Below, piece by piece: positions 54,305 through 63,877 of a DNA stretch of 64,000 nt. Position 1 is the stretch's first letter. Each line of letters opens with the position of its first letter. Origin of the DNA: Bacteriovoracales bacterium (GTDB lineage Bacteria; Bdellovibrionota; Bacteriovoracia; Bacteriovoracales; Bacteriovoracaceae); the NCBI GenBank assembly GCA_030149295.1, contig JASBRV010000028.1, positions 1 through 64,000 on the forward strand, given 5' to 3'. The position numbers were made by a program, and so were the translations under genes. Under the pieces are notes generated by a model. That model was not told the origin of the DNA. It saw only the letters and a list, made by a program, of their open reading frames with translations, and ran no database searches.

Positions 54305-54380
54305 GCGGGTATAGCTCAGTTGGTAGAGCGTCTGCTTGCCATGCAGAAGGTCGCCTGTTCGAATCAGGTTGCCCGCTCCA
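54305..54380 (+). tRNA. tRNA-Gly (anticodon GCC)
   Basis: A 76-nt cloverleaf: acceptor GCGGGTA pairs with TGCCCGC, D-arm GCTC..GAGC, anticodon arm TCTGC-TTGCCAT-GCAGA with GCC in the loop, TpsiC arm with GTTCGAATC, and an encoded CCA (54378-54380). A likely terminator hairpin follows. It marks the left edge of the accessory region; tRNA genes are common integration sites, but no matching repeat of its 3' end was seen further on. Confidence 0.97.
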
Positions 54381-54775: not shown

Positions 54776-55441
54776 ATGTATCAAGACAGATTGCACACTT
54801 ATTCAGAGAGAAAGGGAAAAGAAAAAACTAATCGCCATACTCGTGAAAGCCAGGCCTTAAGGGACGTGAGAATTTTCAAAAAAGTCACGCGTGAGGAAGT
54901 GGCCAAACTAATTGGAAAATCCAAAGAAACAGTGAAGAAATGTGAAGATGGCCGGTCAAATTTTGGCCCTGAAGATCAGGGCATCCTTTTGCGACGTTTC
55001 CGCTATACTAAAAGCGAATTTAAACAAATTTTGGAAGGAGAACTTGTTATTCCCAAACTCCCTGCCAGAAGCGCCTACAAAACCACAAAAAGAGACCCCA
55101 AAGAATACCGGAAGTATCAAAAAATTATCTCCAAAGAATCTCGTGTCCTTAAAGTTCTGCGCAGAAGAGCGAGACTTTCCCAGCCAGATGCTGCGAAACT
55201 TTGTGGTTTCAGTCGTAGCATGATTGACCACAGAGAAAGTGGCAGGGTCGATCTCACTGATAAGCTTGATGAAATACGGCACATTGTTCATTCCTATGGT
55301 CAAAAAATGGAAGACTACTATGATCTTCTGAACTCTGAGGTTTTAAGGGATGAGGTCATTGATAACTGCATGGCAATATTAGAGACAATCTCGGATGACA
55401 AACTCAAAGCTGTCCAAGCGCTCTTAGAAAATTTTAAATGA
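54776..55441 (+). CDS. Tandem XRE-type helix-turn-helix regulator
   Basis: 221 residues with two helix-turn-helix units: RIFKKVTREEVAKLIGKSKETVKKCEDGR (about 30-58) and RRRARLSQPDAAKLCGFSRSMIDHRESGR (about 132-160), each with the Q/E..A...G.S...I...E pattern of XRE/Cro DNA-binding domains. A basic N-terminus and an acidic helical C-terminus flank them. It is the only regulator-like gene between tRNA-Gly and the DGR, converging on the template repeat and reverse transcriptase, so it may control the element. That link is inference. Confidence 0.7.
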   Translation: MYQDRLHTYSERKGKEKTNRHTRESQALRDVRIFKKVTREEVAKLIGKSKETVKKCEDGRSNFGPEDQGILLRRFRYTKSEFKQILEGELVIPKLPARSAYKTTKRDPKEYRKYQKIISKESRVLKVLRRRARLSQPDAAKLCGFSRSMIDHRESGRVDLTDKLDEIRHIVHSYGQKMEDYYDLLNSEVLRDEVIDNCMAILETISDDKLKAVQALLENFK

Positions 55442-55683
55442 TTCCTGCATCCAAGTTTCACACATCACAAATAGGCTTCAACCAATTCGTGCCCCTGACT
55501 TTGAACTTCTTCATGTCGCTTAATTTTTCGGACTCCACAAAGGGGAAATTTCCCCCTCGTGGTTGGCCCAGGAATAAAACCGAAGTGCCTTGGGTTCTCA
55601 CTATTGTGAGAAAAGTGGCCTACAAGCGTACCCGTAAACTTCCTACACCTATTTTCTCCCAAGTCTGCCGACGCCAAAAAAAC
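55442..55683 (-). other. Region 3' of the DGR template repeat (in RT orientation)
   Basis: 242 bp with no credible gene. Read on the minus strand it directly follows the template repeat. In the Bordetella phage DGR, RNA flanking TR 3' (the spacer) folds and primes cDNA synthesis. Here two inverted repeats occur: GGGGAAA/TTTCCCC (55542-55555) and TCTCAC-TATT-GTGAGA (55596-55611). They are candidates for a similar structure; this is inference by analogy. Confidence 0.4.
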
Positions 55684-55802
55684 CGCAGCGAAAGCCAATG
55701 TTCGTGTTCGTGTTCGACGGAGCATTGTTCAAATTGAGCGTGAACGCACCGGCGTTCGTTCCATTGTTCCAATTACCGCCGCGAAGCGCAGCGCCCCCAG
55801 AA
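55684..55802 (-). repeat. DGR template repeat (TR)
   Basis: 119 bp matching the end of the target gene (60556-60674) without gaps, with 18 mismatches. Read on the minus strand it encodes the same frame as the target but with AAC/AAT/ACG codons (Asn, Thr) at every diversified position, the typical codon choice of DGR templates. Fourteen mismatches fall on TR adenines. The outer 28 and 18 bases are identical in both copies. It lies 16 bp after the RT stop codon. Confidence 0.93.
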
Positions 55803-55818
55803 AAAGAGCGAATCGGTT

Positions 55819-56832
55819 TTACACCTCCAATTGTAAATTTTGCCAGGCCTCATAAGATTGAATGACTTGTGCTCTGTACGCTAAGTCAAAGCCCTTCTTT
55901 TTTAGCCGCATTATTTTTTTTGTAAACTTTCTTTCATTTCTTCTCAATGGGCGCCCGCCCTCTTCGCTGAGAACATACCCAAGAAAAGGAACTGGATCAT
56001 TGGCCAGAACGACATATTTGTATGTGGGAATTTCAATTTTCAGCTCACGATCAGCAATGGACACCAGCTCACTTGCCGCGTGAAGGGCCCTTTTTTTATC
56101 GTTCGCCAAGATCACCATATCATCCATATAACGAATGTAGCCTGCATCTTTTTCATATTTATCCTCAAAAAAATCAATTTCAAGAAGTTCACATGCCTTT
56201 CTATCTAATAAAGAGAGATAAAAATTAGCAAAAAGCTGTGATGTTAGGTTTCCAATGGGGATTCCCTTTCCTTTCAAGTTGTAGTCCTCGTGTGATTTTA
56301 TTAAACTCCAGAGTATTTTTTCTAAACTATTATCGGGGAGAAGACTCATAAAACTGTGAAACAAAATTTTGTGATCTATTGATGCAAAATACTTTTTCAC
56401 GTCAAGCTTTACGCAGTAGCGTTTCTTTCCCATAATGGAGAGCTGCTTTTGAAGTCGGACCGCCGCCTTTCTATTTCCCATCCCCGTCCTGCAAGCAAAC
56501 GTTCTGCAACCAAATGACGGATCAAGAATAGGTTCAACCACACGATGAAGTGCAGTGTGAACAATTCGATCCCTAAAAGGTGCTGCCATCACGAGCCTTT
56601 TCTTGGGGTCGTGAACATAAAACTCCCGATAGCCGCCCCATTTAAAATCATTGGTCTTATTGATTTCCTCTTCAATGTGTTTTAATTTTTCACCAAAATT
56701 GAAGAGATACTTTTGATACCCCTCTTTTCGACGCTTACCTCTTGAACAATCGTAAAAGGCGATAAGGAGATTTTCAAAACTACTAACTCTCTGGATGAGC
56801 ATTTTTTCTTTCAAATCTGATGAATCCTCCAA
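55819..56832 (-). CDS. DGR reverse transcriptase
   Basis: 337 residues (327 if ATG 56802 is used). Palm-domain motifs: VKLDVKKYFASIDH (about 141-154, first catalytic Asp), GIPIGNLTSQLFANFYL (about 190-206), the IGxxxSQ form that separates DGR enzymes from group II intron and retron RTs, and IRYMDDMVILAND (about 233-245). It copies the TR RNA into adenine-mutagenised cDNA that replaces the VR of the target. Its start overlaps the avd gene by 50 bp. No maturase or endonuclease domain. Confidence 0.95.
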   Translation of the reverse strand: MEDSSDLKEKMLIQRVSSFENLLIAFYDCSRGKRRKEGYQKYLFNFGEKLKHIEEEINKTNDFKWGGYREFYVHDPKKRLVMAAPFRDRIVHTALHRVVEPILDPSFGCRTFACRTGMGNRKAAVRLQKQLSIMGKKRYCVKLDVKKYFASIDHKILFHSFMSLLPDNSLEKILWSLIKSHEDYNLKGKGIPIGNLTSQLFANFYLSLLDRKACELLEIDFFEDKYEKDAGYIRYMDDMVILANDKKRALHAASELVSIADRELKIEIPTYKYVVLANDPVPFLGYVLSEEGGRPLRRNERKFTKKIMRLKKKGFDLAYRAQVIQSYEAWQNLQLEV

Positions 56833-57142
56833 TTTCTTTTCCTATCTCTTTAGTCAGAGTTGTTATTTCGGAAAAACCAGCAACATTGAGGGCCTGCATA
56901 TCACGCGAAAATTGAATAAGAGTCCTAATCTCGTCGAGGGATTCGGATGCACTATAGAGATGCCTCAGGCGGACACTCGCCTTTGTCACCCCCGCCTTCC
57001 GAATGCTCAGAAGACAGTTTAAAGAGGCTTCTTCTATCTTGCGACCAAGTGTTGGCCGTAGGGCCTTTGGAAATGACTTTGTCCGATGAAATATTTGGAT
57101 CGCGGCCTGATAGCAATCGCTATATACTTTTGTGCTTTTCAT
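56783..57142 (-). CDS. avd: Avd-type four-helix-bundle accessory protein of the DGR
   Basis: 119 residues. The pattern AIQIFHRTKSFPKALRPTLGRKIEEASLNCLL and the later LRHLYSASESLDEIRTLIQFSRDM is the four-helix-bundle (S23-like) family to which DGR Avd proteins belong. Avd forms a ring that binds RT and TR RNA and is needed for mutagenic homing in the Bordetella phage system. Overlaps both the upstream accessory ORF (23 bp) and the RT gene (50 bp), so all three are translated together. Confidence 0.87.
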   Translation of the reverse strand: MKSTKVYSDCYQAAIQIFHRTKSFPKALRPTLGRKIEEASLNCLLSIRKAGVTKASVRLRHLYSASESLDEIRTLIQFSRDMQALNVAGFSEITTLTKEIGKEIGGFIRFERKNAHPES

Positions 57143-57617
57143 TTCTACGATCCATTCTTTTTATAAGTGCTGAATATGCAGGGAGAAGATCATCTTCAAT
57201 TTCACGAATGAGTTTTAGTGAGGTTTCGCAATCAGTTAAGTTGAAATAAGACAAAGCAAGAATGGCACCCACCTTTTGCCTTGATTCATTATAGAGATTT
57301 TTTTTATTCTTTGGCTCAAAAGAGTAGTACCCAGCACCAAGCAGTTCAATCGCAGAGAGTTTCAAATTCTCCAAGCGCTCTTTTAAGTTTGCATTGCCCT
57401 CTGATTGATCAAATTCTAGAGCGCCCAAAACATCCTTGGCCTTAGCGAATAATCTCAAGTTTTTTACGGAAAATGACTTTCCGGAATTTTCCTCTTTTTC
57501 CGTATTTTCCGAATCATTCGGAAAGCTCGTTTCCGGTTTTTCCTTTTCGGAAGGAGATGAACTACCCTTTCCAATACCAAATCTCATTGAAAAGGAAGTA
57601 AGTTGGGCGTCTGGCAC
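57120..57617 (-). CDS. Second helical accessory ORF of the DGR operon, possibly 5'-truncated
   Basis: 165 residues from GTG 57617, or 155 from ATG 57587; neither has a clear ribosome-binding site. Residues about 20-50 are polar and Ser/Glu/Pro-rich. From residue 53 on there are four predicted helices (FSVKNLRLFAKAKDVLGALEF; KERLENLKLSAIELLGA; NESRQKVGAILALSYF; SLKLIREIEDDLLPAYSALIKRM), a size and pattern like Avd. It overlaps avd by 23 bp. The 5' end abuts the IS66 element, which may have removed its promoter or first codons. Confidence 0.65.
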   Translation of the reverse strand: MPDAQLTSFSMRFGIGKGSSSPSEKEKPETSFPNDSENTEKEENSGKSFSVKNLRLFAKAKDVLGALEFDQSEGNANLKERLENLKLSAIELLGAGYYSFEPKNKKNLYNESRQKVGAILALSYFNLTDCETSLKLIREIEDDLLPAYSALIKRMDRRNEKHKSI

Positions 57618-57655
57618 AACTAGCCAGGTAATCTCTCATCAATTATCGTCCAGTC

Positions 57656-58000
57656 ATGATTTTCGATCCTAAATATCCCATTTATATTTTTAACGACTAC
57701 GTGGACATGAGAAAAGGCCACAACACTTTAGCCTACATCGTCACACATAAAATTGATCTTGAGCTGATGTCTGGTGCTCTTTTTCTTTTCGTCGCCAAGA
57801 GCAGAAAGGCCTGTAAAGCTCTATTCTTTGATGGAAATGGCCTAGTTTTAATTCATAAGAAGATTGAGCGTGGACGATTTATGTCATTTGATCACATAAA
57901 AGAGGTAACAGAAATCAATTCAAACGAATTAACTCTTATTCTAAATGGCGGACAAATCCCCTTATCAAAGTCTGGAAAGAAAATATTATTAAAAAGATAA
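57656..58000 (+). CDS. tnpB: IS66 family accessory protein TnpB
   Basis: 114 residues. The IS66 Orf2 signature is clear: YVDMRKGHNTLAYIV (about 15-29), GALFLFVAKSRKACKALFFDGNGLVLIHKKIERGRF (about 41-76). Required with TnpC for transposition in the family; its exact role is unclear. Full length. It precedes tnpC by 44 bp. Confidence 0.92.
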   Translation: MIFDPKYPIYIFNDYVDMRKGHNTLAYIVTHKIDLELMSGALFLFVAKSRKACKALFFDGNGLVLIHKKIERGRFMSFDHIKEVTEINSNELTLILNGGQIPLSKSGKKILLKR

Positions 58001-58044
58001 GAAATAATTAGGCCTTTCGATCGGGCCATTCTATAATTCAGACC

Positions 58045-59580
58045 ATGTATGATGTATCAAAGGAAAATGACAAAGAATTTCTAAGAGAAGCAGTGTTAAT
58101 GCTTCAGGAAGAACTACTCGAAGCAAAGATTGAAGTTGTTTTACTGAAAAAGCTTAAAGAAAAAGATGAAGAAGTACTTCTTAAAATATCTGAAGAATTA
58201 AAAAATCTAAGAAAACGTGTCTTTGCTTCTCAACAAGAGCGAAAAGCGAATAAACCTAAGAATCACAAGAAAAGAAAAAAGGGAAACCTCCCTCATAATA
58301 AATCTAAGAATGAAAGTTTAGATGATTTTGAAATTGATCTAGATGAAGAAGTTATTGATTATAAGATTGAAGGAACTTCATGCCCTGGATGTGGTGGGGA
58401 TAGCTTCTTTGAAATGAATAACTGCTTTGAGGAGTCCAATGAAATAGAAGTCATTGAACGCCAATATATAATTAAAAGACATAAGCGACAAAAATATTCT
58501 TGTAAGTGTTGCAATAAAATCATCACCGCAAAAGGTGGAGTTAAGCTAACTCCTGGTGGTGAATATTCAATTCAGCTTGCGACCCAAGTTGCTTGTGATA
58601 AGTTTGAGGACCATCTTCCTCTTGAGCGTCAGCGTAAGCAAATGAAAAGAGCTGGAATAAATGTTAATGTCAAAACCCTCTACGGTCAGACTGAACATCT
58701 ATACAATATTCTTTTTCCGTTAAATGAATTAATCAGGCAAGATGTACTTTCTGAAAAGTGGGTTCATATTGATGAGTCGCCAATAGACTTTTATAATCCA
58801 AGCAAGAGTAAAGGATATATTTGGTCAATGAGCAATCCTCGTGGGGCCTTTTATCAGTTTGAACCGACTAGGTCAGGAAACGTCGCCAAAGAGATGATTA
58901 AAGGCTACGAAACAGGTTGTGTCGTTAGCGATGGATATTCTGGATATAACTTTTTAGACTCTAACAAAGATTATGAAAATATTCGTCACGCCTTTTGTTG
59001 GGCCCATGTAAGAAGAAAGTTTTTTGAGGCAATGAATCACGATGATAGAGCTGAAGTTGTTATTGATCTGATTGATAAACTCTATGAAGTAGAACACATG
59101 GCAGATGAAATTCATCATTTAAAAGAAGTTCGACTAGATAACTCTGTAGTAGTCGTTAAAGAAATTGATCGTTGGGTTGACTCTATGGATGGAAAGTATC
59201 TAGATACATCCTCTCTTGGGAAAGCTATTCACTATTATCTAAATAGAAAAGAAGGCCTTCACTTATTTCTTTATGATGAGACGATACCAATTGATAATAA
59301 TATGGCCGAAAGAAAACAGCGCTGTCCTGTCATGGGAAGGAAGAACTTTAATAGTTTTAAGTCTATTAATGGAGCAGACGTAGGAACTTTCTTTTATTCA
59401 GTGATTGAATCTTGTAAATCAAACGGTCTTAATCCTAGATCGTATATAAATGATATGGCCCATAAATCTGCAAATGGAGAAGAATTAGAAAGCCCATATC
59501 AATACGGTTCTAGAATAAGTGAAGAACTAAGAGCTCAAGTAGCAAAAAAACTTGAAGCGTTATCAAAACCTTCAGGTTGA
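58045..59580 (+). CDS. tnpC: IS66 family transposase TnpC
   Basis: 511 residues. Coiled-coil N-terminus (about 15-70), a zinc-binding region with CPGCGG and CKCC (about 113-160), then the DDE_Tnp_IS66 core: VHIDESPIDFY (about 239-249), GCVVSDGYSGYNFL (about 291-304), HAFCWAHVRRKFFE (about 313-326) and the catalytic Glu in DNNMAERKQRCPVMGRKN. The C-terminus is normal (SCKSNGLNPRSYI). It appears intact and probably active. Confidence 0.95.
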   Translation: MYDVSKENDKEFLREAVLMLQEELLEAKIEVVLLKKLKEKDEEVLLKISEELKNLRKRVFASQQERKANKPKNHKKRKKGNLPHNKSKNESLDDFEIDLDEEVIDYKIEGTSCPGCGGDSFFEMNNCFEESNEIEVIERQYIIKRHKRQKYSCKCCNKIITAKGGVKLTPGGEYSIQLATQVACDKFEDHLPLERQRKQMKRAGINVNVKTLYGQTEHLYNILFPLNELIRQDVLSEKWVHIDESPIDFYNPSKSKGYIWSMSNPRGAFYQFEPTRSGNVAKEMIKGYETGCVVSDGYSGYNFLDSNKDYENIRHAFCWAHVRRKFFEAMNHDDRAEVVIDLIDKLYEVEHMADEIHHLKEVRLDNSVVVVKEIDRWVDSMDGKYLDTSSLGKAIHYYLNRKEGLHLFLYDETIPIDNNMAERKQRCPVMGRKNFNSFKSINGADVGTFFYSVIESCKSNGLNPRSYINDMAHKSANGEELESPYQYGSRISEELRAQVAKKLEALSKPSG

Positions 59581-59902
59581 AATTAATTAAACTTAATTCA
59601 TGAAACATTTTCTTATCGACAGCGACCTTCTTCGTTGAGCGCTCTGTAGCTTGCTTATCCGATTGAGAGACGACAACTTTATTAAAAGACTTTTTCTTCT
59701 CTATTCTCTTAGGCCATTGCCTAGCGGAAAATTCAGATATCGGAATATGCTTAATAAGTTCTTTTGCAGGAACTTTGTGATCAACTATGAGCTCTACTAC
59801 AATGGCCTTTAAGGACTTTGGATACTTGGTACCAGGGCCACTACCCGTAAGTGAAATAATTTTATTAGCTTCTTGAATAAGCTCAACGATTTGAATATTC
59901 AT
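59510..59902 (-). CDS. TnpA-like HTH protein, opposite in direction to TnpBC
   Basis: 130 residues with a perfect GGAGG before the ATG. KYPKSLKAIVVELIVDHKVPAKELIKHIPISEFSARQWPKRI (about 26-67) reads as the helix-turn-helix of transposase OrfA/IS66 TnpA proteins. Normally tnpA precedes tnpB on the same strand; here it lies beyond tnpC on the other strand and its last 24 codons overlap the tnpC end. The C-terminal hydrophobic stretch is odd and may reflect that overlap or a frameshift. Confidence 0.6.
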   Translation of the reverse strand: MNIQIVELIQEANKIISLTGSGPGTKYPKSLKAIVVELIVDHKVPAKELIKHIPISEFSARQWPKRIEKKKSFNKVVVSQSDKQATERSTKKVAVDKKMFHELSLINFNLKVLITLQVFLLLELLVLHLF

Positions 59903-59945
59903 GTATAACCTCCATGAATGCTAATCGTAGAAAGTCGATAGGAAT

Positions 59946-60128
59946 TTATACGTGGCAGATGCCTAACTTACAAAAGGAATCCAACGAAGCTCTTCTAATA
60001 AACCACGATTTTCCGACCTTAACTGCCTCAATCTCCTTGGCATTGATGTAGTTAATAATAGACCTTGGGGTAACTCCAAGCCGCTCTGAAGCCTCCTGAA
60101 CGGTCAAATCACCATTTTTATTTTTCAT
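59946..60128 (-). CDS. Excisionase/MerR-like small HTH protein
   Basis: 60 residues from ATG 60128 (an upstream GTG at 60140 would add four). LTVQEASERLGVTPRSIINYINAKEIEAVKVGKSWFIRRASLDSF is the HTH_17 'excisionase' fold: winged helix, DNA bending or binding. It lies 43 bp before the TnpA-like gene on the same strand and may be its partner, or a leftover of another element near tRNA-Gly. Confidence 0.65.
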   Translation of the reverse strand: MKNKNGDLTVQEASERLGVTPRSIINYINAKEIEAVKVGKSWFIRRASLDSFCKLGICHV

Positions 60129-60302
60129 AACAAACAACACTCTTTTTAAGTTAATTCTTCTTGTAAATTTTTATTATTTTAGAGGGAGAAACATAATTTA
60201 ACAATAATCAAACTATTTAGAGCAGAAAGTTTGAATAAATTTAACAAAAATTAATTCTCTGACGTGAAAAAAGAGGTGCCTCGCAACCTGTCACAAAAGT
60301 AC

Positions 60303-60367
60303 CTTTTCCGGAAATTCCGGAAATTCCGGAAAGCGTTTCCGCATTTTCCGAAAATTTTCCGAATCAT
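60303..60367. repeat. Tract of TTCCGGAA-type motifs
   Basis: Three TTCCGGAA palindromes in a row at 9-bp spacing, then TTCCGC and two TTCCGA, all within 60 bp. A similar tract (seven TTCCG/CGGAA words) lies inside the second accessory ORF at 57474-57555, and TTTTCCGAATCAT occurs in both (57505-57517 and 60355-60367). The two tracts sit on either side of the IS66 element. Function unknown. Confidence 0.55.
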
Positions 60368-60382
60368 CAAAAAAATTTTCTT

Positions 60383-60399
60383 TCGCTCCTTCGGAGCGA
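60383..60399 (-). promoter_or_regulatory. Hairpin downstream of the DGR target, possible terminator
   Basis: On the minus strand TCGCTCC-GAA-GGAGCGA, 7-bp perfect stem, followed after nine bases by ATTTTTTT. Imperfect as a terminator but placed where the target transcript should end. Confidence 0.45.
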
Positions 60400-60473
60400 G
60401 TATGATCCTCTCTTGCGATGGCCTCACATTATTTGCTTAATTTTATTTTTAATTTCCAAGGGTCAAGAGCCAA

Positions 60474-60490
60474 GGCGCGGCTTGCGCCGC
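60474..60490 (-). promoter_or_regulatory. GC-rich hairpin 3' of the variable repeat
   Basis: GGCGC-GGCTT-GCGCC, with an alternative register GCGGC-TTGC-GCCGC. It lies 52 bp beyond the target stop codon on the transcript. In Bordetella phage BPP-1 a hairpin shortly 3' of VR promotes homing; this one is further away but is the strongest GC stem in an AT-rich stretch. The equivalence is inference. Confidence 0.4.
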
Positions 60491-60541
60491 TTTTCCAATT
60501 GCCTGCCGACTTAATACAGTGCTAGCTAAGATATTCTGACG

Positions 60542-63500
60542 CTATGGGCGGTAGACGCAGCGAAAGCCAATGTACGCGAGCGTGCCCGACGACGAATTGC
60601 CCAAAACGAGTGCGAACGCACCGGCGTTCGTACCATGGTTCCAATAACCGCCGCGAAGCGCAGCGCCCCCAGAACCTCCATACCAACGCCCTGCTTGCTG
60701 CGTAGAGGTATATCCGCCACTGGTTTGAAGATCATTTGATGTCACAGAGCCGGATAGTGATGTGAGTTCTTGCCATGAAGCTGTTCCATTGGTTGGACCA
60801 CTCGTGAAGCCTGCTGTGGTGCTCCAGTCCACCCATTCCCATACGTTTCCGGCAAAATCCCAAATTTCGGAACCGTTAGAGAGCTGGTGAGTTCGTCTGA
60901 GTTTGTGGGTTCCTGTGGAAGCACAAGTATTGGCGGCGGTGTTATAGAGACAACTTGCGCCTGTCGATGGTGCCACTGCCGAGTTGGTAAAGCCGTCATC
61001 TGCTGTCGCTGCTGACCAACCACGCGCGAGATCGCCTGATCCAACCGAGCCGCCAGACCAGTTAGTGGAAACGCCTTCGAGGTCTCTGGCGATGGTCATC
61101 CACTCAGGATTGGAAATAAGTGTAAATGTGCCGGCTTCAAAGCCAGCTTCAGTCATCGCCTCGCAGGTCGATTGCGCAGTCGTGGCATTGATACTTACCC
61201 AAGGGCTGCCGGAGGCCTGAGAGACGGCGTTGCCGCCACTGTTCTTAGCTTCGTATGCCATAACACAGAAGTCCGATGTTCCGAAAGTGGCGTTTCCAGT
61301 GACAGCAACGAAGCCGGTGGGGCAACTGAGAGGCCCTGTTCCGAGTGTTCCCGTTGAGTAAGTGATAAACCAAGCTGATCCATTAGAGATAAGCTGTGCT
61401 GTTGCATATTGGCTCTGCAGTTCTTTCCCATAGATTTCGCCATCAATTGCTTCGGGAGCAACAACGGCCACCGTCTCAGATGCATCAATATTTTTAATAG
61501 TAATGGCAAACCCACTTCCTGCGGTAGCAGCAGCAGGAAGCGTTAGTGTACTCGCCCCTGAAACCAGAAAAACCTTATTATTATCTGCTGTGGTTACTGT
61601 GTAGTCTGCGGCTTTAGCTTCAAGTGTGTTTAAAATCTTGATTCCTGTGATTGCCCCATCAGCTACTTTGGCGGTAGAAATTCCACTGTCTTTAACTTGA
61701 AGATTACCACCACTGACTTCAATGGTTGAGTTATCAACATTGCTGGTTCCAAGCTTATTATTAAAGGTATTCCAGTCAGTGTTTGTTAAATAACCACTGG
61801 TGGTGGTGTTTGCTTGTTTGACTTCAATGGTGGTTCCCGTTCCAATGATGGCATTGGTTCCACTTGTGATAGTAAGGACTGATGAGGTTGCTTCGGTGAG
61901 ATTTCCCTTCGTAAGGGTGGGTTCTTTTCCAGCAATATTTCCATCGAGCTTGTTGATGGCGGAAAGAACCGTATCTGCACTAGATACCACGCCTGCCACA
62001 GAAGCGAAGCCGGTTAGTGTTGTCCCTCTTACGTCGGTAGCGAGCGTTGAAAGAGAGAGATCGCCTCTTAGATACTGCGCGGTCGTTCCAGTGGTAATGG
62101 CACTTTGTTTGTTATTAAAGGTATTCCAGTCAGTGTTTGAGAGGTAGCCATTGGTGGTGGTGTTTGCTTGGGTCATGCTGATGTTCGGTGTTGCTCCACC
62201 ACTTGAACTTAGCGGCGGTGTCGCTGTTACGTTACTTACTGATCCCGCACCGGTTGTCACCCAAGAAAGCACTCCCGAGCCATTTGTAGAAAGAACTTGC
62301 CCACTTGTTCCATCGACTCCAGGCAAGGTCCAAATAAGGCTGGCTGCAAGAGCATCTGGAGACTTGAATCCTAGATAATTTGATCCATTAGCTGTTAATT
62401 CATAAAAACGAAACTCCCCGGTCTGGCCTGCAAGTGTGCCATAAGGGGAAGCGTTAATACCCCCTTGAGCACTTGAGGTTATCGAGTTTACTGAAAGATC
62501 AGTTGAGCCTGTGATTTGGTCTTGCTTAAGGGCGAGAGCATCTGAAACATCATCACTGCTTGGAGCAGTAGTCGTTTGTCCATTGGTGATGCTTCCAACT
62601 TCAATGAGGTCGGTTCGCGCTTGTGCGGCAGTATAGTATTTATTGGTTGCCCCTTCGGGAACGACATCGGTATTCAAAGTTTGCCAGCTTTTGTCTCCGC
62701 GCCAATATTGCGCGGTTGTTCCTGCGGTAATGGAATTTTCTTTTCCTGATATATTTGTCGCATTGGTTGTGACCTGAGAGCTTAAAGCTGAAACATCAAC
62801 TCCATCTACAAGCCCTGTAGTGAAGGTGATGTTGTTTGCTCCCATGACAATGTTGCCGGTCATCGTACCACCCGCTAGCGGGAGCTTACTTGACAGGTCT
62901 GTTGAAAGATTTGCAATTTTACTTTGCGCAATCGCCGCACTTCCTGAAATATCCGCATTGGCAATAGTTCCATCGGCGATTTCCGTAGTCGTGACAGAGC
63001 CGGCCCCTCCGCCATTTAAATCGTCGCTGATGACCCAAGCAGAGCCGTTCCACTTAAGAATCTTTCCTGAAGCAATGCCAGTGGTATCAACGTCGGCAAT
63101 ATCATTAATAGAGGAGGTCGTTTTATTGATTTGTGCCCAAGTGTAATCTCCTGACTGAGGAGTGACCGCGCCACTCCTTCCGTTAAAACTTTGCACATTT
63201 GTGGCATTATCAATTTTTTCCCATTGAGCAAGAACATTGTTCCAAACCACCCAATCGCCAACTGCCCATGAGTTGGTTCCAGCTCCTCCGAGAAGATCAT
63301 AAGTCCCAGAGTTGTTGACGATATAATATTCGCCAAGATTGCCTCCGCCTGAGAGATCAGGCGAGTTCGTGGTTGCATTCCAATTTCCGGCGTAAGTGAG
63401 ACCACCAAGATCACTAGGAACCCAAGTCGTTCCATCATATTTTAAAACTTGTCCAATTCCTGCTCCCATACTGGCAAGTTTTGAAGCAGTGACAGCTCCA

Positions 63501-63877
63501 TCTTGCAGCGTGAATGTCACTTGAAAGGTCGCTGCTCCATAGGCATCAGAAATAATTAAACTGAAAACAGCGCCCACTGCAAAAGAGATATTTTTTAGGC
63601 CGTTAGCAATAAGATTGGAGGCCGTTTTGGATTCAATGGCAAAAGTTTCATCAAATCCCGAAGGGCCTGTGATTCGCACAGTATTGACGCCATCAAGGGC
63701 ACTACCATTGATAACCAATTGGTCGTTGACAATAGAGACTGCGGAAACTGTCGCCTTGGCCACACTCCCACTTTTAGTGGCATTTCGGTCAAGTCCGAAA
63801 GTCTCGACTTTGTCTGGTTGAAAAAAACAACCAGAGAGGATGAGTGATAAAGCAATGTAGACAAAGACAGTTCTCAA
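60542..63877 (-). CDS. DGR target: surface lipoprotein with tail-fibre-like stalk and variable FGE/C-lectin-like tip
   Basis: 1111 residues. TTG start at 63877 with AAGGTG five bases before it; lipobox LSLILSGCFF (Cys 17). Residues about 40-125 look like an IPT/TIG beta domain. From about 130 to 850 the Gly/Ser/Thr/Asn-rich stalk uses phage tail-fibre motifs (GRSGAVTPQSGDYTW, GTTAQYLRGD, TDWNTFNNK). From about 852 a FGE-sulfatase/C-type-lectin-like domain has GNVWEWVDW and ends LRGGYWN...GFRCVYRP. Residues 1068-1108 are the variable repeat. The base composition is visibly more GC-rich than flanking genes. Likely anchored in the outer membrane with the tip exposed; ligand unknown. Confidence 0.92.
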   Translation of the reverse strand: MRTVFVYIALSLILSGCFFQPDKVETFGLDRNATKSGSVAKATVSAVSIVNDQLVINGSALDGVNTVRITGPSGFDETFAIESKTASNLIANGLKNISFAVGAVFSLIISDAYGAATFQVTFTLQDGAVTASKLASMGAGIGQVLKYDGTTWVPSDLGGLTYAGNWNATTNSPDLSGGGNLGEYYIVNNSGTYDLLGGAGTNSWAVGDWVVWNNVLAQWEKIDNATNVQSFNGRSGAVTPQSGDYTWAQINKTTSSINDIADVDTTGIASGKILKWNGSAWVISDDLNGGGAGSVTTTEIADGTIANADISGSAAIAQSKIANLSTDLSSKLPLAGGTMTGNIVMGANNITFTTGLVDGVDVSALSSQVTTNATNISGKENSITAGTTAQYWRGDKSWQTLNTDVVPEGATNKYYTAAQARTDLIEVGSITNGQTTTAPSSDDVSDALALKQDQITGSTDLSVNSITSSAQGGINASPYGTLAGQTGEFRFYELTANGSNYLGFKSPDALAASLIWTLPGVDGTSGQVLSTNGSGVLSWVTTGAGSVSNVTATPPLSSSGGATPNISMTQANTTTNGYLSNTDWNTFNNKQSAITTGTTAQYLRGDLSLSTLATDVRGTTLTGFASVAGVVSSADTVLSAINKLDGNIAGKEPTLTKGNLTEATSSVLTITSGTNAIIGTGTTIEVKQANTTTSGYLTNTDWNTFNNKLGTSNVDNSTIEVSGGNLQVKDSGISTAKVADGAITGIKILNTLEAKAADYTVTTADNNKVFLVSGASTLTLPAAATAGSGFAITIKNIDASETVAVVAPEAIDGEIYGKELQSQYATAQLISNGSAWFITYSTGTLGTGPLSCPTGFVAVTGNATFGTSDFCVMAYEAKNSGGNAVSQASGSPWVSINATTAQSTCEAMTEAGFEAGTFTLISNPEWMTIARDLEGVSTNWSGGSVGSGDLARGWSAATADDGFTNSAVAPSTGASCLYNTAANTCASTGTHKLRRTHQLSNGSEIWDFAGNVWEWVDWSTTAGFTSGPTNGTASWQELTSLSGSVTSNDLQTSGGYTSTQQAGRWYGGSGGAALRGGYWNHGTNAGAFALVLGNSSSGTLAYIGFRCVYRP
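60556..60674 (-). repeat. DGR variable repeat (VR) with IMH-like 3' end
   Basis: 119 bp, ungapped match to TR at 55684-55802. Diversified residues (VR / TR codon): Tyr1078/Asn, His1081/Asn, Ala1089/Thr, Val1091/Asn, Gly1093/Asn, Gly1098/Asn, Leu1100/Asn, Ala1101/Thr, Tyr1102/Asn. The 18 bases at its 3' end (60556-60573) are identical to TR and would act as the homing start (IMH-like); 28 bases at the 5' end are also identical. Four mismatches are not at TR adenines: three in codons 1095-1096 and one in codon 1089. Confidence 0.93.

Follow-up and report, generated by a model that had tools for sequence, protein, structure and literature searches.

A variant diversity-generating retroelement in a Bacteriovoracales genome with a putative DNA-binding accessory gene split by an IS66-family element

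The stretch of DNA analysed here (the window, 64,000 nucleotides, positions 1 to 64,000 of contig JASBRV010000028.1 from the Bacteriovoracales bacterium assembly GCA_030149295.1) contains a diversity-generating retroelement (DGR) whose components lie on the reverse strand. In the order in which they would be read these are a target gene of 1111 aa (60542-63877), a gene designated orf1 that is cut in two by an insertion sequence (IS) of the IS66 family, a gene for an Avd-type accessory protein of 119 aa (56783-57142), a gene for a reverse transcriptase (RT) of 337 aa (55819-56832, TTG start as listed), a template repeat (TR, 55684-55802) and, starting about 20 nt past the TR, a structured RNA of 138 nt (55527-55664), a candidate for the 3' portion of the template RNA. 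The TR is paired with a variable repeat (VR, 60556-60674), likewise of 119 nt, that ends 11 nt short of the end of the target reading frame.

The two repeats align over 119 nt without gaps at 85% identity and 14 of their 18 mismatches fall at adenines of the TR, which are changed to G (7), T (5) or C (2); with 26 adenines among the 119 TR positions the chance of such a concentration is p = 7e-7. A preliminary description of the locus had already placed the TR and the VR at these positions, the latter at the 3' end of a large coding sequence, and had counted 14 of 18 mismatches at TR adenines with changes to G, C and T. Our recount agrees in each respect, variation is not spread equally over A and non-A positions, and the argument made there that duplication plus drift would not give this pattern holds, as the adenine bias makes drift very unlikely. 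No further copy of the TR besides the VR was found in this genome (G000 in our set, in which the prefixes G, C and L denote genomes, contigs and loci). Within 160 nt of the VR there is no perfect stem of at least 6 pairs, such as some relatives have, and near the VR we saw by eye only a 5-pair stem, GCGGC[GCAA]GCCGC.

The RT carries the motifs IPIGNLTSQ and YMDD and matches phrog_1423 at 5e-78, and a profile of 14 related RTs finds the RT of the Bordetella DGR (8ub7) at 1e-54 and group II RTs at 1e-26 at best. The 44 DGR-type rows of a 51-RT tree are split from its 7 group II rows at 100/100, and the window RT falls within a 17-row clade (100/99) in which every row comes from an orf1-bearing locus, with one orf1-linked RT (L106) outside this clade at an unresolved fork. 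Rows shorter than 240 aa were removed from the tree (55 to 51, including the group II locus L291), and of 48 confirmed foreign loci it includes the first 25. The DGR type that had been read from the IGNLTSQ and YMDD motifs in the preliminary description is borne out by the motifs, the tree and the 8ub7 profile match, and of the RT phylogeny proposed there the tree delivers the DGR grouping and the separation from the 7 group II RTs, retron RTs not being among its rows. A group II intron was rejected on score as well (TIGR04416, 88.8 bits against a cut-off of 300), as was a retron or defence-associated RT (NF038233 43 against 235 bits, Drt3a 48 against 200, Drt2 41 against 390). Among 80 RT loci listed as matches from contigs of other organisms, a list from which near records may be left out, 48 have an adenine-specific TR/VR pair. 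The smaller protein matches phrog_3206, "Avd protein of DGR", at 6e-14, in line with its earlier reading as Avd-type; it exceeds the cut-off of Pfam 23S_rRNA_IVP (36.6 bits against 33.8), falls just under that of bAvd (38.6 bits, 2e-9, cut-off 40) and well under that of NCBIfam Avd (48.7 bits, cut-off 80). Judged on its sequence the locus is a genuine DGR.

The preliminary description had called this DGR complete; however it missed a third cassette gene, orf1, lying between the VR and avd, and the cassette is not complete because this gene is cut by the IS66 element. The 5' part of orf1 (59972-60128, reverse strand) encodes an excisionase-like helix-turn-helix (HTH) and is found by the orf1 profile at 7e-20, and the 3' part (57120-57597, reverse strand) encodes a linker and a helical C-terminal domain and aligns with intact homologues. 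Between them lies the insertion (57598-59971), flanked by an 8-bp duplication, AAAAGGAA, at 57590-57597 and 59972-59979. Its two ends agree at 17 of their 20 outermost bases and it encodes a TnpB (57656-58000, forward strand; PF05717 3e-24, NF033819) and a transposase, TnpC (58045-59580, forward strand; PF03050 3e-68, NF033517 4e-94), so that both proteins, inverted ends and the 8-bp duplication of an IS66 element are all present. An ORF of 130 aa (59510-59902) runs opposite to the transposase without a family match in Pfam or NCBIfam and is possibly an unusual TnpA. Orf1 is unsplit in G059, whose RT is 80% identical to that of the window and has an interrupted frame in that assembly.

In intact form orf1 joins the excisionase-like HTH to the helical domain. 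Of 8 intact homologues 6 score above the HTH_17 cut-off, the only PDB match of the orf1 profile at 0.1 or better is 4j2n (Gp37, 1e-6), which we take to be a phage excisionase, and in one homologue there are matches to excisionase families of PHROG (6e-5 and 8e-4). The 3' part has no match in Pfam, PHROGs, NCBIfam or PADLOC. Across 368 genomes of the phylum orf1 lies within 3 kb of the RT at 18 of 19 RT loci of at least 40% identity and at 4 of 25 less similar ones. The count takes 46 RT rows as 44 loci, the two rows of G033:C41 being joined and an additional G059 fragment left out, and uses 37 of 39 orf1 rows, without the G000 5' part and an additional fragment from G095:C101. Fifteen of these 37 orf1 rows lack an RT row in the 3 kb around them; five of the fifteen match clearly, in some cases truncated at a contig end, and the other ten are weak (E 2e-6 to 9e-5). 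Outside this set, the 80 listed RT loci give two weak orf1 matches (2e-4 and 6e-4), a query from L020 found no orf1 among 50,697 phage records, and six IMG/VR loci carry the gene, one of them with merely 37 residues at a contig end. The best reading of Orf1, from these matches and its linkage to the RT, is a putative DNA-binding accessory protein of the cassette.

Copies of the motif TTTCCG/CGGAAA are concentrated around this gene. Array 1 (60305-60361) has seven sites 195-251 nt past the 3' end of the VR and before orf1, and array 2 (57467-57535) has six inside orf1. In total we counted 14 sites, 13 of them in the two arrays, in 1048 bp compared with an expectation of 0.40 based on the remainder of the window (p 2e-17), where the 1048 bp are the spacer with the orf1 5' part plus the orf1 3' part and these regions were chosen after being seen. 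Fifteen of 19 orf1 regions have at least 4.9 sites per kb and two have 3.3, set against 0.4 to 1.8 for whole loci. Ten tandem site pairs occur in the genome, five of them here and the others singly on five other contigs; a reversed control pattern occurs 41 times in the genome.

In the RNA domain past the TR an alignment of 11 loci shows changes on both sides in 25 of 38 pairs, with 95% of cells able to pair, and a covariation score of 0.611 compared with 0.12-0.15 when partners are slid; the folding z for 55524-55683 is -2.96. A model of this RNA (R1, 10 seed rows) scores 133 bits at this locus and matches 16 of 37 local sources (17 matches), including the non-seed loci L098, L099, L101 and L092 at 5e-8 to 8e-5, and in the first three of these the match starts 18-19 nt past the TR. 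Under strict filters it matches 10 of the 368 genomes. It has no match in the 80 listed RT loci from other genomes and none at L023, L024 and L102-L106, and therefore covers orf1-bearing DGRs just in part. No Rfam family matches the domain and there is no second copy in this genome. Further R1 matches are at G059:C50:1-136, G095:C83:23422-23554, which adjoins a barrel-type gene, and G247:C103:1715-1894. At L021 (G033:C41, about 2095-2600) two tandem TR-plus-RNA units, the second with an N run, follow a single RT, which suggests that one RT serves two templates. In the Bordetella phage BPP-1 the folded spacer 3' of the TR serves to recruit RT-Avd and to prime cDNA synthesis, according to the accessible text of PMC12875486, and a similar role for the RNA domain in the window is a natural inference from this.

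The four mismatches that are not at adenines lie at TR positions 64, 80, 82 and 83. The TR of G001 has T80, G82 and A83, and that of G095 reads TCGT at 80-83, identical to the VR there, whereas the mismatch at position 64 is not accounted for. Three of the four would thus fit TR alleles of relatives, that is an older or different allele and not plain drift, and the VR may keep an older template in which the stretch 80-83 may have escaped overwriting since before the IS insertion. G059 however shares the TR allele of the window at 80-83 although it has no IS, so the non-A mismatches alone do not show that the IS stopped the DGR. In the same family, L026 (G032:C86, 2762-2833 and 6427-6498) is a DGR without orf1 that has a second VR at the contig end, with all 8 mismatches at TR adenines.

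The target protein has a lipobox-like LSGC at its start (by eye) followed by fibre-like repeats and a lectin/FGE-type tip, and it matches phrog_2889 at 9e-14. The tip alone matches FGE-sulfatase weakly and under the cut-off (0.002-0.005), and a profile of 11 tips gives a match at 1e-12 to 5vf4, a DGR variable protein, and weak ones to TvpA of Treponema (PDB 2y3c) at 0.004 and Mtd at 0.005; a PDB search with the whole target gave no match. Its N-terminal 150 aa fall in a family that, among 59 genomes, reaches as many as 15 matches in a single genome. Beside the target lies a gene for a protein of 354 aa (C104:64789-65853) with a LysM-like start, the rest being barrel-like by reading, and with no Pfam match. 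Relatives of this neighbour occur at 12 of 23 fetched orf1-type DGR loci and at none of the 80 listed loci from other genomes; the family is present in 71 of the 368 genomes and 12 of its 13 best matches share a contig with a DGR-type RT, the exception being G059:C59. In G002, G006, G021 and G036 a gene of the target N-terminus type and a barrel-type gene lie on one contig no more than about 2 kb apart, and no RT match is listed at 1e-20 for these genomes. We infer from this a fibre-plus-barrel surface pair onto which the DGR would have been fitted. At L023 (G056:C92), in a genome of another family, the target N-terminus is 84% and the barrel neighbour 62% identical to those of the window but the RT just 43%; the fibre pair may move separately from the DGR, or the contig may be misbinned. 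Another protein of this genome with a lectin tip and a lipobox-like start (L034, G000:C60:5977-6762) shares 46% identity with the target C-terminus over the VR region. It was rejected as a second or recent target because it has no DNA match to the TR, and is perhaps a former target.

With regard to the genomic setting, the genes on the left flank (dihydrolipoyl dehydrogenase, exonuclease, radical S-adenosylmethionine protein and leucine-rich repeat protein) are also found by eye at the G001 DGR and partly at G033:C41, and those on the right (kinase, YcaO, solute-binding protein) at the G033:C63 DGR. No phage structural or integrase genes were recognised among the neighbouring proteins scanned, which did not take in every ORF of the window, and within this range the same statement of the preliminary description holds; the LysM neighbour has matches to endolysin and tail families of phages via its LysM part. 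A tRNA-Gly(gcc) gene (54305-54380, forward strand) and a double-HTH regulator (54776-55441, forward strand) lie just left of the DGR. IMG/VR contigs labelled viral carry the same cassette type, one with an endolysin-like gene, and phage carriage elsewhere is therefore possible. The earlier proposal that the element serves the host cell is favoured by the recurring chromosomal flanks and the lack of recognised phage genes and tempered by this possible carriage, and the DGR most likely belongs to the host cell.

We give a probability of about 75% to the reading that this is a variant chromosomal DGR of the host cell that diversifies a surface fibre, has a DNA-binding accessory protein in Orf1 and is probably impaired here by IS66. 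The TR transcript would continue into the 3' RNA domain and be copied by RT-Avd with errors at A, and the cDNA would replace the VR and so rewrite the lectin-type tip of a surface-anchored binding fibre. Orf1 would most likely bind the arrays and regulate an orf1-avd-RT operon, and because IS66 parts its HTH from the C-terminal domain and sits upstream of avd-RT this copy is probably impaired or silent; a promoter scan was uninformative (15 sites compared with 14.3 in shuffles). Several points weigh against such a reading. DNA binding by Orf1 is a prediction, and the PHROG matches of its HTH include a terminase small subunit family (1e-4). One DGR-type RT locus in the same group (G068:C199) is without orf1 and 2 of the 19 orf1 regions are without TTTCCG/CGGAAA sites. 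Within nine orf1 genes the sites occur in several frames and both directions, with 35 of 70 in one frame and direction, and coding repeats may therefore make up part of the arrays. The non-A mismatches are possibly older than the IS, which would weaken the evidence for impairment. Mismatches fall at A in 175 of 179 cases in 14 TR/VR pairs of relatives compared with 14 of 18 in the window (p 0.003), a comparison that is biased because the pairs came from a search for A-bias (30 loci given, 14 with pairs and 16 without), and that leaves out the L023 pair 4696-4763/5050-5117 (4 of 6 at A) and the second VR of L026.

A fully active DGR in which orf1 is dispensable, IS66 is neutral and avd-RT is read from another promoter would suit the open RT and Avd reading frames, the 14 adenine differences as traces of past activity and the one similar RT locus without orf1, but we consider it unlikely in view of the retention of orf1 at 18 of 19 similar loci, the position of the IS between the presumed promoter region and avd-RT and the three of four non-A mismatches that the present TR did not overwrite. 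About equally doubtful is a part for Orf1 in the homing machinery, as a tether or second bundle subunit and not a regulator. The location of array 1 just past the VR speaks for such a part, as does a first AlphaFold model of the Orf1 C-terminus, a helical bundle for which Foldseek ranks 2gsc first and Bordetella Avd (4dwl) sixth; these two entries stand at E 0.08-0.3, however, no match to that model reaches E 0.001 or better, a second model did not reproduce the hint (no Avd chain among the 50 listed Foldseek rows), hhalign found no sequence relation between the Orf1 C-terminus and Avd, and the array would be equally suited as an orf1 operator. A specific form of this idea, Orf1 as a sequence-specific tether with an Avd-related bundle and an HTH that coats the array past the VR and brings the RT-Avd-RNA-cDNA complex to the target, is somewhat less probable again. 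That the cassette is the remnant of a prophage or island instead of a resident cellular system could be argued from the IMG/VR contigs with the same cassette type, one of them with the endolysin-like gene, the tRNA-Gly gene and double-HTH regulator just to the left and the excisionase-like HTH in orf1, yet with scanned neighbours in which no structural or integrase gene of a phage was recognised, flanks that recur at G001, G033:C63 and in part G033:C41 and no orf1 in the 50,697 phage records it appears very improbable. A mere duplication followed by drift would account for the gapless 85% identity of TR and VR, but the concentration of 14 of 18 changes at TR adenines and the RT gene and conserved RNA flanking the TR leave it a negligible chance.

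What makes this DGR a variant, as predicted from the sequence, is the HTH-bearing third gene together with the site arrays and its own RNA domain. The lipoprotein DGRs of Legionella and Treponema are cellular and have a surface lipoprotein as target, and the DGR of the window would be set apart from them by its fibre-like shaft, orf1 and arrays; the link to Treponema is the weak tip-profile match to TvpA. With the BPP-1 DGR (mtd-avd-TR-brt; PDB 8ub7, 4dwl) the locus shares the RT, Avd, TR, VR, adenine-specific change and lectin-type target as well as a structured RNA 3' of the TR, which in BPP-1 recruits RT-Avd (PMC12875486, accessible text). It differs in having the TR after the RT gene, a conserved structure peculiar to its 3' RNA, a third gene with an HTH and site arrays placed between the target gene and avd, and a fibre-like target that bears a lipobox. 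The nearest described analogue of the target, by description and with no PDB match, is the mosaic adhesive trimer (MAT) fibres of Bdellovibrio, surface proteins that are long and fibre-like with a shared N-terminal domain and varied tips, one with a C-type lectin fold resembling Mtd; no DGR is described for them in the accessible text (PMC10769870). Chromosomal DGRs in Thiohalocapsa, some degenerate and with transposons implicated, include one with an HTH-domain gene nearby, but that gene stands in for a conflict-system effector, unlike orf1, and the accessible text describes neither a cassette gene between target and avd nor a site array (PMC10907252). In the DGR literature that we covered, mostly outside subscription titles, we found no report of an orf1-type gene, a site array or this 3' RNA, and novelty is unproven.

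The control of DGRs and the way in which they find their targets are open questions, and a putative DNA-binding cassette gene accompanied by site arrays makes both directly testable, with the split orf1 here and its unsplit relative as a natural comparison. If the tether reading were true, a protein-DNA address would guide retrohoming in this clade, and the copy split by IS66 would represent a naturally occurring mutant of that address. The covarying RNA offers a second template-RNA architecture for comparison with that of the Bordetella phage. If the hosts are predators, the DGR would offer a means of varying the tip of a prey-binding fibre.

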